A program made the translations under genes and the position numbers. A stretch of 64,000 bases of DNA from a bacterium (lineage in GTDB: Bacteria > Desulfobacterota > Binatia > HRBIN30 > CADEER01): positions 310,001 to 374,000 of the forward strand of contig JAHBUY010000002.1 of the NCBI GenBank assembly GCA_019637795.1. Reading direction: 5' to 3'. Numbering within the stretch: position 1 is the first letter of the stretch; the number at the start of each line of letters is the position of its first letter. Below the pieces are notes generated by a model. That model saw only the letters and a program-made list of their open reading frames with translations. It did no database searches and had not been told where the DNA came from. Of the stretch, positions 34,124 through 46,973 are shown piece by piece.

Positions 34124-34150
34124 TTGTGGGCGCGCGGGGGCTCCGATAGC
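34124..34150 (+). promoter_or_regulatory. Putative promoter TTGTGG-N15-GATAGC
   Basis: TTGTGG at 34124-34129, 15-base spacer, GATAGC at 34145-34150, 12 bases before the MFS start codon. No Shine-Dalgarno sequence lies in between, so transcription would begin a few bases from the ATG. Confidence 0.4.
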
Positions 34151-34162
34151 TTGCCGCCGGCG

Positions 34163-35395
34163 ATGCACACGGTACCGGCGAGCAACGAGCGCAACGTTCT
34201 CCTGCTCACCGGCGTCGGGCATTTCGCCACCCACTTCTTCGAGCTGATGTTCCCCACCCTGGCGGTGGCGCTGGCCAGGCAGAGCCAGGTGCCGATCGAC
34301 GAGGTGCTGAGCTGGAGCTTCCTCGGCTATCTGGCGTTCGGGCTCGGGGCGCTGCCAGCGGGTCTGCTGGGCGATCGCGTCGGCACCCGCCTGCCGCTGC
34401 TGGCGGCGCTGTTCGGTCTCGGGGTCGCGGCGCTGGCGGCCAGCGAGGTCACGTCGCCGCGGGCGCTGATCATCTGCCTCGCGGCCATGGGCGCGCTCGC
34501 CAGCGTCTATCACCCGCTCGGCATGAGCCTGATCTCGCGCACCATCGACGCCCGCGGCCGCGCCCTCGGGATCAACGGCATCTTCGGCAATCTCGCCATC
34601 GCCCTGACGCCGGTGGTGACCGCCACCCTCTGCGCCCACTTCGGCTGGCAGGACACCTACCGGCTGGTCGGCTACGCGATGTGCGCGCTGGCGGTCGGCT
34701 GCGCCTTCCTGCCGGTGCAGGAGCCGGCGCCGCGCGCCGTCGCCGCCGAGGCCGCCGGGACGCCGATCGCCTGGCGACCGCTGCTGGTGCTGCTGGTGGC
34801 GGCGACCCTCGCCGGCGTCAGCTATCGCGGCACGACCCTGTTGCAGCCGGCCTACTTCGCCGAGCGGGTGAGCGAGATCTGGTTCGGCGCCGCGGTGTCC
34901 GTCGCCTATCTGCTCGGCGTCGGCGGCCAGTACCTCGGCGGTCTGCTCGCCGACCGGCACGACCAGCGCCGGCTGTACCTGCTCTTCCACGCCTGCAGCC
35001 TGCTGCCGCTGCTGTTGATGAGCGTGCTCGGCGGCATGCCGCTGGTGGTCAGCACCGCCGCGTTCGTGTTCTTCAGCCTCGGCATGCAGCCGATCGAGAA
35101 CAGCCTGGTGGCGCACTACGCGCCGCCGCACCGGCGGGCGGCGATCTATGGTCTCAAGTTCGTCTGCACCTTCGGCGTCGGCTCGCTGGCGGTGTGGCTG
35201 GTGGGCTGGGCCGACGGCATCGGCGGCCTGGCGCACGCCCTGCGCTGTCTCGCCGGCGTGGTCCTGCTGGTGATCGTCGCCGCCGCGGTGCTGCTGCGCA
35301 TGGATGATCGCGTCGCCCCGCGCCCGGCGCGCGCGGCGACGGCCGCGCGCCAGCCAGGTGGCGCGAGGCCGCAGGATTCGGCGGTGCTGCCATGA
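34163..35395 (+). CDS. MFS transporter
   Basis: 410 residues, about twelve helices in two halves. Start ATG 34163 (MHTVPASNERNVLLL); the next upstream start is unconserved. Loop 2-3 carries the MFS signature GLLGDRVGTRLPLL, and loop 8-9 has GGLLADRHDQRRLYLL. VGHFATHFFELMFPTLAV at the N-terminus resembles the fosmidomycin-resistance/FsR branch. It exports or imports a small molecule, unidentified. Its last bases (ATGA) start the histidine phosphatase gene, so it heads an operon with the phosphatase and the aminotransferase-Mur ligase fusion. Confidence 0.88.
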   Translation: MHTVPASNERNVLLLTGVGHFATHFFELMFPTLAVALARQSQVPIDEVLSWSFLGYLAFGLGALPAGLLGDRVGTRLPLLAALFGLGVAALAASEVTSPRALIICLAAMGALASVYHPLGMSLISRTIDARGRALGINGIFGNLAIALTPVVTATLCAHFGWQDTYRLVGYAMCALAVGCAFLPVQEPAPRAVAAEAAGTPIAWRPLLVLLVAATLAGVSYRGTTLLQPAYFAERVSEIWFGAAVSVAYLLGVGGQYLGGLLADRHDQRRLYLLFHACSLLPLLLMSVLGGMPLVVSTAAFVFFSLGMQPIENSLVAHYAPPHRRAAIYGLKFVCTFGVGSLAVWLVGWADGIGGLAHALRCLAGVVLLVIVAAAVLLRMDDRVAPRPARAATAARQPGGARPQDSAVLP

Positions 35396-36024
35396 GCGGC
35401 GTGCGACGTCTGGTGCTGGTGCGGCACGGCGAAACCACCGGCCAGTCGAGCGTCCGCTACTACGGCGCCACCGACGTGCCGCTGAGCGCGCTCGGCGAGG
35501 CGCAGATGCGGCGCGCCGGCGCCGCCCTGGCGGGCGAGGCGTTCGACGCCGTCTACGCCAGCCGGCTGCAGCGGGCGCGGCGCGGCGCGGCGCTGATCGC
35601 CGGCGCCGCCCACGCGCCGCGCCCGGTGGCGGCGTTCGACGAGGTGAGCTTCGGCGACTGGGAGGGCTGGACGCGCGAGGAGATCGCGCGCCGCGCGCCC
35701 GCGGCGTTCGCCCGCTGGCAGGCCGACCCCGAGCGCTTCGTCTATCCGGGCGGCGAATGCCGCCAGGCCTTCCACCGTCGGGTCGCCGCCGGGCTCGCCG
35801 CGCTGCTGGCCGACCCCCCCGGCGCGCGCCTGCTGCTGGTCGCGCACCGCGGCGTCATCGCCGTCGCGCTGAGCGAGCTGCTCGGCCTGGACGCCGCCGC
35901 GCGGCGCGTCCTCGACATCGGCCTCGGCTCGATCCACGTGCTCGTCCGCGACGGCGCCGGCTGGCGCGCCGAGCGGCTGAACGCGCTCGACCACCTCGCC
36001 GACGTCGCGGAGGCGAGCGCATGA
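35392..36024 (+). CDS. Histidine phosphatase (phosphoglycerate mutase-like)
   Basis: 210 residues. LVLVRHGETTGQSSVRYYG carries the phosphorylated His (RHG); ASRLQRARRGAALIAG, DEVSFGDWEGWTREE and LLVAHRGVIAVALSE supply the other active-site Arg, Glu and His. This subgroup includes alpha-ribazole phosphatase (CobC) and broad-specificity phosphatases; no cobalamin gene is near. It overlaps by four bases with both neighbours and is probably part of one pathway with the downstream fusion enzyme. Confidence 0.9.
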   Translation: MSGVRRLVLVRHGETTGQSSVRYYGATDVPLSALGEAQMRRAGAALAGEAFDAVYASRLQRARRGAALIAGAAHAPRPVAAFDEVSFGDWEGWTREEIARRAPAAFARWQADPERFVYPGGECRQAFHRRVAAGLAALLADPPGARLLLVAHRGVIAVALSELLGLDAAARRVLDIGLGSIHVLVRDGAGWRAERLNALDHLADVAEASA

Positions 36025-38030
36025 GCCGCCTGTTCGCCGGCGGCGCCGCGCGCGTGCGCGAACGCCGCGGGCGCGCCGCCGAGCGGCTGCGCGGACTCAC
36101 CCTGTCGCCGATCAAGGACGTCGAGCTGCAGGCGAGCCGCATCCCCGGCGTCGTCTCGCTGGCGCAGGGCATCCCGAGCTTCGACACCCCGGAGCCGATC
36201 AAACGCTTCGCGGCCGAGCGCATGGCGGAGGGCGCCTGCGCCCGCTACTCGGTCAGCCCCGGCCTGCCGGCGCTGCGCGAGGCGATCGCCGAGGCGCTGG
36301 CGCGCGAGGGCATGCCGTACGACCCCGACCGCGAGGTCCTGGTCACCGTCGGCTCGATCGAGGCCATCGCCGCCACGCTGCTGGCCCACCTCGACGACGG
36401 CGACGAGGTGCTGGTGGTGTCGCCGACCTACGCCTCCTACCTGCCGGCGATCCGCCTCGCCGGCGGCGTGCCGCGCTGGGTGCCGCTCGACGAGGACGCG
36501 CACTTCGACCTCGACCCCGACGCGATCGCCAACGCGGTGTCGCGCCGCACCCGGGCGCTGCTCCTGTGCAACCCCAACAATCCCACCGGCACCGTCTTCT
36601 CGCGCGCCCAGACGCTGCGCATGCTGCGCGTCGCCGCCGCGCACGACCTGCTGGTGATCACCGACGAGGTGTACAAGGACTTCGTCTACGGCGAGGCCGG
36701 CATCTTCAGCGCCGCCATGGAGCCGAGCGCGCGCGAGCGCGTGATCCGCGTCTGCTCGTTCTCGAAGGCGTACGGGATGACCGGCTGGCGGGTCGGCTTC
36801 CTGCACGGACCGGCGGAGCGCGTCGCCGACGTCCTCACCGTCCACGACGCGCTGGTCACCTGCGCGCCGGTGGTGTCGCAGTACGCGGCGCTGGCGGCGC
36901 TCGAGCTGGGCGGCGCGTTCATCGCCGAGTTCGCCGCCGAGTTCCGGCGCCGCCGCGACCACGTCGTCGAACGCCTCGACGCCCTGTCGCAGGTCTTCGA
37001 TTACCAGAAGCCGAACGCGTCGTATTTCGCCTTCCCGCGCGTCAAGGACACCGTTCCCCTGGCGCGCGATTCGCGGCGGCTGGCCGCCGAGCTGCTGCAC
37101 CACGCGCGCGTCGCCCTGGTGCCCGGCGTCGCCTTCGGCCCCACCGGCGAGGCCCACCTGCGGCTCTGCTACGCGCGGCCCGCGGCCGACGTCGACCTCG
37201 CCTTCGATCGACTGACGGAGTACTTCGGCGGCCGCCCGGCGCGCGATCGCGTCGCCGTGCCCGCCACCCTGCCGGCGCGCGCGCCGACCGCCCGGCTCGC
37301 GCTGCGCCGCCGCGGCGTCGCGCTGCTCCGCCGCCTGGCGCACCGCCGCCTGCAGCGCATGCGGCCGAAGGTGGTGGCGATCACCGGCACGCACGGCAAG
37401 ACGGTGCTGAAACGCACCCTGGCCGAGCTGCTGGCACGCCGCCTGCGCGTGCACGCCAACCCGCTCTCCCACAACACCGCCATCGGCCTGCCCCTGGCGG
37501 TGCTCGACGCCGAGCTCGACACCCGCCGGCCGCTGGCGATCGCGGCCGCCTTCGCCCGGGCGGCGTGGCGCGCCTATGGACCGGTCCCCCCGCTCGACGT
37601 CATGGTGCTCGAGCTCGGCGTGCGCCGCCGCGGCGACATGCGCGCCCACCTGGAGATCGTGCGCCCGGACGTCGTGGTGGTGACGCCGGTCGCCGCCAGC
37701 TACACCGACGACCTCGAGGCGATGAAGACCCTGCGCGCCGAGATCGGCCTGCTGTGTCGCGACGCGAGCCAGCGCGGCGCCGCGGTCCTGCTCTGCGGCG
37801 ACGATCCGATGCTCGCGGCGCTCGCCGCCGAGCTGCCCGGCGCGCGCACGTTCTCCGCCCAGGAGCTGCGGACGGGCGCAGCGGGCACGACGTTGGCGCT
37901 CGACGGCCGGGACCTGCCGGTGCACCGCGACATCGTCGGCGCCAGCGGTCAGCGCGCCGTCGCCGCCGCCGTCCACGTCGCCCGCCTGCTCGGCGTCGAC
38001 GACTCCGAGATCGCCGCCTACCTGGATTGA
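36021..38030 (+). CDS. Aminotransferase-Mur ligase fusion
   Basis: 669 residues beginning at ATGA overlap with the phosphatase gene. Residues about 20-405 are a class I/II PLP aminotransferase: SLAQGIPSFDTPEP, CNPNNPTG, TDEVYKDFVY and the PLP lysine in CSFSKAYGMTGWRVG. After a basic linker, from about residue 445 to the end is a Mur-ligase central domain: VVAITGTHGKTVLKRTL (P-loop), NPLSHNTAIGLPLAVL and LELGVRRRGDM, closest in layout to MurF. The C-terminal Mur domain that binds the amino acid is missing; the protein ends where the central domain normally ends. I infer that the aminotransferase makes an amino acid that the ATP-dependent half helps join to an acid. Confidence 0.87.
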   Translation: MSRLFAGGAARVRERRGRAAERLRGLTLSPIKDVELQASRIPGVVSLAQGIPSFDTPEPIKRFAAERMAEGACARYSVSPGLPALREAIAEALAREGMPYDPDREVLVTVGSIEAIAATLLAHLDDGDEVLVVSPTYASYLPAIRLAGGVPRWVPLDEDAHFDLDPDAIANAVSRRTRALLLCNPNNPTGTVFSRAQTLRMLRVAAAHDLLVITDEVYKDFVYGEAGIFSAAMEPSARERVIRVCSFSKAYGMTGWRVGFLHGPAERVADVLTVHDALVTCAPVVSQYAALAALELGGAFIAEFAAEFRRRRDHVVERLDALSQVFDYQKPNASYFAFPRVKDTVPLARDSRRLAAELLHHARVALVPGVAFGPTGEAHLRLCYARPAADVDLAFDRLTEYFGGRPARDRVAVPATLPARAPTARLALRRRGVALLRRLAHRRLQRMRPKVVAITGTHGKTVLKRTLAELLARRLRVHANPLSHNTAIGLPLAVLDAELDTRRPLAIAAAFARAAWRAYGPVPPLDVMVLELGVRRRGDMRAHLEIVRPDVVVVTPVAASYTDDLEAMKTLRAEIGLLCRDASQRGAAVLLCGDDPMLAALAAELPGARTFSAQELRTGAAGTTLALDGRDLPVHRDIVGASGQRAVAAAVHVARLLGVDDSEIAAYLD

Positions 38031-44477: not shown

Positions 44478-45638
44478 CTACGCCGCGCGCGGCCAACGAC
44501 CGTCGCGGCCGCCGACGTAGCGCGCGGCCGGGCGGATCAGCCGGTTGGCCTCCATCTGCTCGAGGATGTGCGCCGTCCAGCCGCCGACGCGGGCGAGCGC
44601 GAAGGTCGGCGTGAACAGCTCCGCCGGCAGCCCCACGCCGTGCAGCAGCAGCGCGGTGTAGAACTCGACGTTGGTGTCCAGCCGGCGCCGCGGTTTCAGC
44701 TCGCGCAGCACGCGCAGCGTCGCCGCCTCGACGATCCGCGCGTCGGCGATCAACGTCCCGTCGCCGCCGCGCGCGCCGAGCGCCAGCGCCGCGGCCCCGA
44801 GCACGTCGGCGCGCGGGTCGCGAACGCGATAGACGCGATGCCCGAATCCCATCATGCGAGCCCCGGCGCCCACCTCGCGGCGAACGTACGCGTCCGTCTC
44901 CGCCTCCAACGTGCGGCCGGAACGCGCCGCCGCAGCGCGCAGCGCGAACACCATGTCCAGCGCCGGTCCCGGCGCGCCGCCGTGCAGCGGACCCTTCAGC
45001 GCCCCGATCGCCCCGACCACCGCCGAGCACGGGTCGGACTGGGTGCTGGCGATCACCCGGGCGGTGAAGGTGGAGGCGTTCATGCCGTGGTCGACCACCG
45101 TGTTGCAGTAGGTCTCCAACGCCCGCACCACCGCCGGATCCGCCTCGCGGCCGTCGAGCAGCCAGAGGAAGTGCGCGACGTGGCCGAGATCGCGCCGCGG
45201 CGCCGGCAGCCCGCGCCCGGCCCGCTCGCGCCAGTACGTCGCGATCACGGTCGGCATCGCCGCCACCAGAGTGATGGCGTCGTCGAGCGCCGCCGCCCGA
45301 TCGCCGCCGCCGCGCGCCCCGAGGCTGAGGCTCGCGACCCCCATGCGCAGCGCGTCCATCGCCGGCACCGCCCGCCGCGCCGCGTCGCGCAGCAGCGCCC
45401 GCGTCGCCGCGGGCAGCCCCCGCCGCGCCGCCAACGCCTCGGCCAGCGCCGTCCGCTCCGCCGGGCTCGGCAAGCGCCCGTGCCACAGCAGGGACAGCAC
45501 CTCCTCGAAGTGGGCGTGCGGCGCCAGCTCCTCGACCGGGTAGCCGCCGATGATCAACCGACCGCGCTCGCCGTCCACCTCGCTCAAGCGCGTCGCCGCC
45601 ACCACCACGCCCTCCAGTCCCGCTGCGATGTCGTCCAT
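44478..45638 (-). CDS. Citrate synthase family protein
   Basis: 386 residues from ATG 45638 behind GGGAGGG. Catalytic His residues lie in GPLHGGAPGPAL and MGFGHRVYRV; the third position reads RLDTNVEFYTALLL, with Glu where classical citrate synthases have Asp (NVDF). I recall NVEF in some short citrate/methylcitrate synthases, so it is probably active. It condenses acetyl- or propionyl-CoA with oxaloacetate. Divergent from a helix-turn-helix-citrate synthase fusion across an AT-rich region with three palindromes. Confidence 0.88.
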   Translation of the reverse strand: MDDIAAGLEGVVVAATRLSEVDGERGRLIIGGYPVEELAPHAHFEEVLSLLWHGRLPSPAERTALAEALAARRGLPAATRALLRDAARRAVPAMDALRMGVASLSLGARGGGDRAAALDDAITLVAAMPTVIATYWRERAGRGLPAPRRDLGHVAHFLWLLDGREADPAVVRALETYCNTVVDHGMNASTFTARVIASTQSDPCSAVVGAIGALKGPLHGGAPGPALDMVFALRAAAARSGRTLEAETDAYVRREVGAGARMMGFGHRVYRVRDPRADVLGAAALALGARGGDGTLIADARIVEAATLRVLRELKPRRRLDTNVEFYTALLLHGVGLPAELFTPTFALARVGGWTAHILEQMEANRLIRPAARYVGGRDGRWPRAA

Positions 45639-45681
45639 GATCCGCCCTCCCGGCGCCACTGCGGCGCGCCACCGGATGCTC

Positions 45682-45739
45682 ATCAATTGATTCTGTGCTG
45701 TCAATCTTGATTGGTAATTACATGATTGACTGCTCAATC
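45682..45739. promoter_or_regulatory. Triple palindrome between the two citrate synthase genes
   Basis: Three dyads share the half-site CAAT: ATCAATTGAT (45682-45691), CAATC-TT-GATTG (45702-45713) and GATTGA-CTGC-TCAATC (45724-45739), all perfect. The block is strikingly AT-rich in this genome, and lies 43 bases from one start codon and 22 from the other. It probably holds both promoters and the binding sites of the HTH domain of the neighbouring fusion. Confidence 0.65.
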
Positions 45740-45761: not shown

Positions 45762-46973
45762 ATGCCGACCTATCTCAGCGCGCGCGAGGCCGCGGCGGAG
45801 CTCGGCGTCAGCCTGGCGACCCTGTACGCGTACGTGAGCCGCGGGCAGATCCGCTCCGAGCGCGAGGGCGCGGCGCGCCAGCGGCGGTATCTCGCCGAGG
45901 ACGTCTGGCTGCTGAACGCGCACAAGCGCGGCCGGCGCGATCCGGCGCGGGCGGCGCGGGAGGCGCTGCACTGGGGCATGCCGGTGCTGGAGTCGCGTCT
46001 CTCGGTGATCCACGGCGGGCGTCTGTACTACGCCGGCCATGACGCGGTGGAGCTGGCGGCGCGGGCGACCATCGAGCAGGTGGCGGCGCTGCTGTGGTCG
46101 GGCGACGTCGACTCGCCGCTGCCGGCGGAGCCGATCGCCAGCGACGCCGTCGAGTGGCGCAGCGCCGCGGCCCTGGCGCGGCGGGTGGCGCCGCTCGACG
46201 GCCTGCAGCTCTTCCTGCCGCTGGCGGCGGCGCGCGACCCGCACGCCTTCGACCTGCGGCCGCTGGCGGTGCAGCGCGCCGGCGGCCGCATCCTGCGCGT
46301 CCTCGCGGCGGCGGCGGCGGGAACGCGGCCGACGACGGAGCCGGTGGCGCGCCTGCTGCAACGGCGCTGGGCGCCGCGCGATCCCGGCGCGGCGCGCCTG
46401 CTCGACGCGGCCCTGGCGCTGTACGCCGACAACGGCCTCAATCCGTCGAGCTTCACCGCCCGCTGCGTCGCCTCGGCCGGGTCGACGCCCTACGCCGTGG
46501 TGACCGCCGGCCTGGCGGCGCTGCAGGGCGTCAAGCACGGCGGCGCCTGCGAGCGCGCCGCCGGGCTGCTCGACGAGGTGCGCGACGCGCGCGGCGCGGC
46601 GGCGACGCTGGCGGCGCGGCTGCGCCGCGGCGAGGCGGTGCCCGGCTTCGGCCACCCGCAGTATCCCGACGGCGATCCGCGCGCCGCGCACCTGCTGGAA
46701 CGGCTGGCGGCGCACCGGCCGTCGTCGCCCGAGGTGGCGCGGGCGCGGGCGCTGGTCGACGCCGTCGGCGCGGCGATGAACGAGCGGCCGACCATCGACT
46801 TCGCGGTCGTCGCCCTCTGCCGCACCCTCGGGCTGCCGCCCGGCGCGCCGCTGTGGCTGCTCGGCGTGGCGCGGGTCGTCGGCTGGATCGCGCACGGCCT
46901 CGAGCAGTACCAGGAGGGCCGCGCCATCCGGCCGCGCGCCCGCTACGCCGGCGCGCTGCCGGCCGCGGAGTGA
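45762..46973 (+). CDS. Helix-turn-helix-citrate synthase fusion
   Basis: 403 residues. Residues 1-55 are an excisionase/MerR-like DNA-binding domain: YLSAREAAAELGVSLATLYAYVSRGQIRSE...RRYLAEDV. A citrate synthase domain follows with all three catalytic positions present: QGVKHGGACE, VPGFGHPQYP and PTIDFAVVAL. Such fusions are known in proteobacteria, but their role is unsettled. Given the divergent citrate synthase gene and triple palindrome, I infer a regulator that senses acetyl-CoA, oxaloacetate or citrate through its enzyme-like domain. Confidence 0.85.
   Translation: MPTYLSAREAAAELGVSLATLYAYVSRGQIRSEREGAARQRRYLAEDVWLLNAHKRGRRDPARAAREALHWGMPVLESRLSVIHGGRLYYAGHDAVELAARATIEQVAALLWSGDVDSPLPAEPIASDAVEWRSAAALARRVAPLDGLQLFLPLAAARDPHAFDLRPLAVQRAGGRILRVLAAAAAGTRPTTEPVARLLQRRWAPRDPGAARLLDAALALYADNGLNPSSFTARCVASAGSTPYAVVTAGLAALQGVKHGGACERAAGLLDEVRDARGAAATLAARLRRGEAVPGFGHPQYPDGDPRAAHLLERLAAHRPSSPEVARARALVDAVGAAMNERPTIDFAVVALCRTLGLPPGAPLWLLGVARVVGWIAHGLEQYQEGRAIRPRARYAGALPAAE

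Follow-up and report, generated by a model that had tools for sequence, protein, structure and literature searches.

The window, by which we mean the whole stretch of 64,000 nucleotides that was analysed, carries three overlapping genes on its forward strand between positions 34124 and 38030, the last of which encodes a fusion protein. These genes and the features of the fusion protein are as follows:

34124..35395 (+), MFS transporter (MFS_1, 2.1e-41)
35392..36024 (+), histidine phosphatase, CobC-like, directly upstream of the fusion gene (His_Phos_1, 4.3e-51)
36021..38030 (+), fusion gene, 669 aa, class I aminotransferase plus MurF-type central domain (ORF, Pfam, NCBIfam, conserved fusion)
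36021..37226 (+), aminotransferase half, aa 1-402 (Pfam Aminotran_1_2; Foldseek 1gd9)
36429..36431 (+), Tyr137, PLP-stacking position (alignment with the Trp of Thermus AspAT)
36765..36767 (+), Lys249, the invariant PLP Schiff-base lysine
37227..37289 (+), low-confidence linker, aa 403-423 (AlphaFold2 model)
37290..38027 (+), MurF-derived half, central (ATPase) domain only, aa 424-669 (Pfam, profile match to MurF structures, fold)
37386..37403 (+), Walker A / P-loop GTHGKT, aa 456-461 (sequence)

The open reading frame of the fusion gene runs from ATG to TGA with zero internal stops and matches both Aminotran_1_2 and Mur_ligase_M, in agreement with the initial annotation, which had proposed an aminotransferase and a Mur ligase domain in one frame; the PLP lysine (K249, located in SFSKAYGMTGWRVG) and the P-loop are also present as claimed there. 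The letters ATGA at 36021-36024 hold both the start of the fusion and the stop of the phosphatase gene, and a second ATGA, at 35392-35395, plays the same part for the phosphatase start and the MFS stop; the MFS gene possibly starts at an alternative ATG at 34163. An operon with these two neighbours had been proposed, and the overlapping starts and stops in the window are in line with it. The histidine phosphatase is kept upstream of the fusion in 7 of the 8 genomes examined in the window's order, the MFS gene at only 3 loci in the same survey. The phosphatase scores 137 bits with TIGR03162, which is below the cut-off; the CobC-like protein is conserved at 46-58% identity through most of the order, and no link to cobalamin is evident. 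Two other sets of neighbours were set aside. The threonine dehydratase downstream of the fusion (L036, L037, L043, L109) reflects the synteny of one Binatota-type family and is absent from others, and the same holds for the FIST and conserved unknown genes upstream of it. Elsewhere in the window lie two divergent citrate-synthase-like genes (44478-45737 on the minus strand and 45762-46973 on the plus strand), one of which has an N-terminal helix-turn-helix-like stretch, as judged by eye from the translations.

An AlphaFold2 model of the fusion shows two domains connected by a linker in which segment 406-422 has pLDDT values below 50. Aminotran_1_2 (PF00155) matches aa 44-398 (2.8e-63; 214.7 bits versus a gathering score of 19.7), and the top Foldseek match of this half is 1gd9, with a target-normalised TM of 0.91. 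The N-terminal half thus belongs to the class I aminotransferases by both profile and fold, and by its fold it looks like an ordinary broad-specificity aminotransferase. The top NCBIfam match is the model for the guanitoxin-type (GntC-type) cyclodehydratase, NF041364, yet the score of 299.9 bits compares with a cut-off of 415, and this identity, which we rejected, is further weakened by other aminotransferase models that score nearly as high. DapC models also match, far below their curated cut-offs, and the best score of the Patescibacteria members described below is with PRK07683, 'aminotransferase A', likewise far below the curated cut-off. The residues K249, D215, Y218, N187, Y76, R257 and R381 are kept in all 52 aminotransferases of this kind that were compared. 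The residue that stacks on PLP is, by alignment, Trp in Thermus AspAT, Phe in 1gd9 and Tyr137 here; it is Tyr in 52 of 52 members, but in only about one quarter of the other aminotransferases compared.

The second half descends from MurF and has lost much of what a ligase needs. Mur_ligase_M matches aa 454-613 (9e-8), the half matches MurF structures by profile, and when modelled alone (pLDDT 93.5) its top Foldseek matches are MurF structures as well. Among the Mur models murF TIGR01143 scores highest, with 93 bits versus a curated cut-off of 288.6, and this half is therefore not a MurF by score. It is not a three-domain MurF either. In an alignment with the 474-aa MurF of the same genome it spans residues 76-308, which leaves the ATPase domain only. 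The initial annotation was thus right that the C-terminal Mur domain is lacking, but incomplete, as the N-terminal UDP-binding domain is absent too. The carbamylated Lys is missing in 55 of 55 aligned Mur halves and the catalytic His in 53 of them (31 of 31 fused and 22 of 24 split), whereas the Mg-binding Glu is retained in 53 of 55, and 52 of 55 have a Glu one residue before the position of the carbamylated Lys. The Walker A motif of the window's fusion, GTHGKT, fits the GxxGKT consensus, and its Lys is retained in 29 of 31 fused members. Among the 24 split members, the Gly before this Lys is found in only 2 and the Thr after it in 9. Walker A is repeatedly eroded in the split proteins, for example to GSTNK, GTTRR or GITSK (genes L054, L055, L059, L060, L121-L123 and L181-L200). 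Its motifs are thus not those of a functional ligase. The split Mur-like protein, in which the Mg-binding Glu and the new Glu stay despite the erosion of Walker A, is a putative pseudo-ligase under selection. The possibility that the fusion serves as the genome's own MurF is ruled out by the full MurF encoded elsewhere in the window's genome. All ten other genomes tested likewise have a further MurF-like gene of full or nearly full length, which scores over the curated cut-off in 5 of them. In the window's genome a second MurF-like match (G000:C1:650192-651262; 145 bits, below the cut-off) was observed besides the true murF.

A genome-wide search found the fused architecture in Binatota-type, SAR324-like/Lambdaproteobacteria, Dadabacteria and some Patescibacteria genomes, as well as in one genome labelled Gracilibacteria. 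In the window's class, 25 of 148 genomes carry the aminotransferase half (defined by a match at E<=1e-90), and the fusion occupies a single frame in all 22 class genomes with a contig long enough. The conservation of this frame in 22 class genomes and in other phyla rules out a frameshift artefact, which the initial annotation had named as a possible refutation. Most Patescibacteria carriers encode the halves as two separate genes, adjacent or overlapping; a Mur-like gene directly follows nearly every aminotransferase of the clade, the exceptions being G116 and L182, the latter situated at the edge of its contig. One Patescibacteria pair, L194, is fused. This adjacency supports the functional link between the halves that had been proposed from the fusion. 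In the following we refer to both arrangements as the module. In a tree of 97 sequences all aminotransferases of the module group together in one clade (SH-aLRT 99). Within it the fused members form a single clade (SH-aLRT 100), which is nested among split Patescibacteria sequences and whose basal members are two fused sequences from Patescibacteria/Gracilibacteria; the fusion thus goes back to a single event. The simplest reading of this tree, which depends on its root, would be that this event took place in Patescibacteria and that the fused gene was later transferred to the other phyla. On a contig labelled Bacillota (L052, 1-2677) the aminotransferase-Mur frame runs into FAD oxidoreductase-like sequence, which represents either a further fusion or a misassembly. 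Our literature search found no published description of an aminotransferase-Mur module, in line with the earlier remark that the pathway was undescribed, and the enzyme family is real, conserved and apparently new to the literature.

D-alanine is required for bacterial peptidoglycan, and alanine racemase (Alr), a standard drug target, is treated as near universal. We scored alr with TIGR00492 in the 148 class genomes and found it in 120. It was present in 6 of 25 module carriers versus 114 of 123 non-carriers, a difference with a nominal Fisher p-value of 1.9e-12 that is inflated by kinship because related genomes are not independent. Among high-quality class genomes, alr was found in 4 of 14 carriers versus 80 of 81 non-carriers. 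Accordingly, 10 of the 11 high-quality class genomes without alr carry the module. One of these is the window's genome, which has a completeness of 100 and no match to TIGR00492 anywhere, and three of its four family relatives (G001-G003) have alr and no module. The pattern recurs in Patescibacteria, with alr in 2 of 28 carriers versus 14 of 20 non-carriers, whereas the D-Ala-D-Ala ligase Ddl shows no such difference (18 of 28 versus 15 of 20, p=0.53, also nominal). At E<=1e-20, 10 of the 28 Patescibacteria carriers have no Ddl. The complementarity is not absolute. Six class genomes keep both alr and the module, and neither was found in nine genomes of the class, G004 among them, or in six of the Patescibacteria controls; most genomes in these counts are metagenome assemblies. 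In one fusion carrier (G007:C7:1129356-1130440) alr lies in two pieces in different frames, possibly a decaying racemase gene or an assembly error. A D-amino-acid transaminase (TIGR01121) over the cut-off was found in none of 68 genomes, the window's included; class IV aminotransferases below this cut-off occur in Binatota-type genomes. A literature search on alanine racemase and peptidoglycan in the candidate phyla radiation returned no paper.

Patescibacteria genomes share the gene order lysS - nadD-like - serS - X - ddl - ftsQ - envC-like, the members of which we verified in G641 and G817 with NCBIfam and Pfam models. At six loci X is alr, between serS and ddl (G641, G643, G653, G647, G644 and G139; ftsQ was detected 3' of ddl in the first four), and in G654 alr adjoins ddl at a place with no serS match. 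At three loci (G803, G817 and G697) X is the aminotransferase-Mur pair, followed in each case by ddl and then ftsQ. The pair comes right after ddl in G847 and G888, and in other carriers it stands directly between serS and ftsQ or ddl is located elsewhere. On a serS tree the alr and pair states need 6 changes, at least 4 of which are forced by supported branches. In G116 (L155, 4296-6364), a deep branch of the clade, the aminotransferase gene comes without a Mur gene; it has a TrmB-like gene upstream and directly overlaps a gene for a D-Ala-D-Ala ligase. The exchange of alr and the pair beside ddl is difficult to account for without assuming that the module takes over the function of alr, and the absence of alr together with the shared position next to ddl points to the supply of D-alanine for peptidoglycan. 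Such a role is strongly suggested by these comparisons of genome sequences.

We consider it quite probable that the module supplies the D-alanine of peptidoglycan in the stead of alr, most likely by racemisation and with a Mur partner that does not ligate. Several observations speak against it, namely the carriers that keep alr, the genomes with neither alr nor module, the Patescibacteria carriers without Ddl, the ordinary fold of the aminotransferase half and the class IV aminotransferases below the cut-off in Binatota-type genomes. The aminotransferase half would then be a fold-type-I PLP enzyme that turns L-alanine into D-alanine, with Lys249 taking the alpha proton and Tyr137 returning one on the opposite face. 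There is precedent for this chemistry. In Escherichia coli cystathionine beta-lyase, which is also of fold type I, the PLP-stacking Tyr111 is the acid and Lys210 the base in alanine racemisation, and the Wolbachia enzyme has been reported as a stand-in for Alr (PMC5025676). The fold-type-I GlyA of Chlamydia pneumoniae weakly racemises alanine in vitro (PMC3935232). From its PLP-stacking position we infer that Tyr137 may be equivalent to Tyr111, and the invariance of Tyr137 together with these precedents leads us to favour a Lys249/Tyr137 racemase, with D-transamination in second place. The Mur half of the fused clade would bind a nucleotide without ligating and could act as a regulatory or docking domain toward Ddl or MurF, possibly sensing the nucleotide. 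For a fuller version of this scheme we see about even chances: a dedicated fold-type-I alanine racemase whose MurF-derived partner domain binds nucleotide and couples the making of D-alanine to ATP or to the cell-wall pathway. This enzyme would have arisen in Patescibacteria, exchanged places with alr there several times, become fused once and spread to Binatota, SAR324-like bacteria and Dadabacteria, where alr was lost.

D-alanine could also be made by D-specific transamination of pyruvate with a D-amino acid such as D-glutamate. The aminotransferase fold, the intact set of transaminase residues including R381 and the lack of a D-amino-acid transaminase over the cut-off in carriers all fit this reaction. 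Class I aminotransferases, however, normally use L-amino acids, and the characterised D-amino-acid transaminases are, to our knowledge, of fold type IV; this route therefore seems to us unlikely. We doubt even more that the aminotransferase works elsewhere in cell-wall amino-acid metabolism, for example in a diaminopimelate-type reaction, so that its complementarity with alr would be a by-product of lineage. The PRK07683 and DapC matches speak for such a function, but their scores lie far under the curated cut-offs, and it would account neither for the precise exchange with alr in the serS-ddl interval nor for the switches that recur on the serS tree.

Two further possibilities assign a catalytic role to the Mur half. 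The initial annotation had envisaged that the aminotransferase makes an amine, that the Mur half ligates this amine to an acid, and that the product, a small secreted amide, is exported by the MFS protein. The physical fusion, the Walker A motif and Mg-binding Glu that the fused clade has retained, and the overlapping operon with MFS and phosphatase genes in the window are all compatible with this scheme. Yet the loss of the catalytic His and carbamylated Lys and of the substrate-binding domains speaks against ligation, the rarity of the MFS gene speaks against a secreted product, the neighbours in Patescibacteria are ddl and ftsQ rather than genes of secondary metabolism, and the absence of alr would be left unexplained. 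We now regard this scheme as very improbable. MurD2 and MurL reportedly act by ligation followed by epimerisation in place, for D-glutamate. By analogy the Mur half could add L-alanine to a precursor that the aminotransferase half then epimerises, and the MurF descent of the one half and its fusion to a PLP enzyme would suit such a pair. The Mur half, however, has neither the UDP-MurNAc-binding and amino-acid-binding domains nor the ligase residues, and Ddl and a separate MurF-like gene are still present in most carriers, which makes this the least probable of the readings that we have weighed.

The genomic evidence thus points strongly to the module as a non-homologous replacement of alanine racemase with an unusual domain partner. 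If this is true, a widespread substitution of alr would close a gap in the pathway of Patescibacteria and Binatota-type bacteria, and the module would combine gene displacement in place with domain fusion and likely transfer between phyla. It would also mean that the joining of a MurF domain to a D-alanine-making enzyme has recurred with an unrelated enzyme.

Several known systems resemble the module in part. The class I aminotransferase of Pyrococcus horikoshii (1gd9/1dju) and its relatives share with it the fold, 37% identity and all PLP-site residues, but the module is distinguished by the invariant Tyr137, by the clade-specific residues E35, K219, R243 and T280, and by being joined to or paired with a Mur domain. 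With Alr (TIGR00492, fold type III) it shares the slot before ddl in Patescibacteria and a complementary distribution, whereas sequence and PLP fold are unrelated. MurF, the UDP-MurNAc-tripeptide:D-Ala-D-Ala ligase, has the central domain in common by profile and fold and, with the fused clade, also Walker A and the Mg-binding Glu; unlike MurF, the Mur half is without the N- and C-terminal domains, the catalytic His and the carbamylated Lys, and the carriers tested have a separate MurF-like gene. Cystathionine beta-lyase and GlyA are fold-type-I PLP enzymes that cover for the absence of Alr, as the module would; they are other enzymes with a side activity, whereas the module is a dedicated clade that replaces alr in place (PMC5025676, PMC3935232). 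The MurF-Alr fusion (PRK11930 / NF008897), whose MurF region is matched by the Mur half, likewise combines a MurF domain with a D-alanine-making enzyme; it consists of a full MurF and a fold-type-III Alr, whereas here a cut-down MurF domain is joined, in the reverse order, to an enzyme of fold type I.
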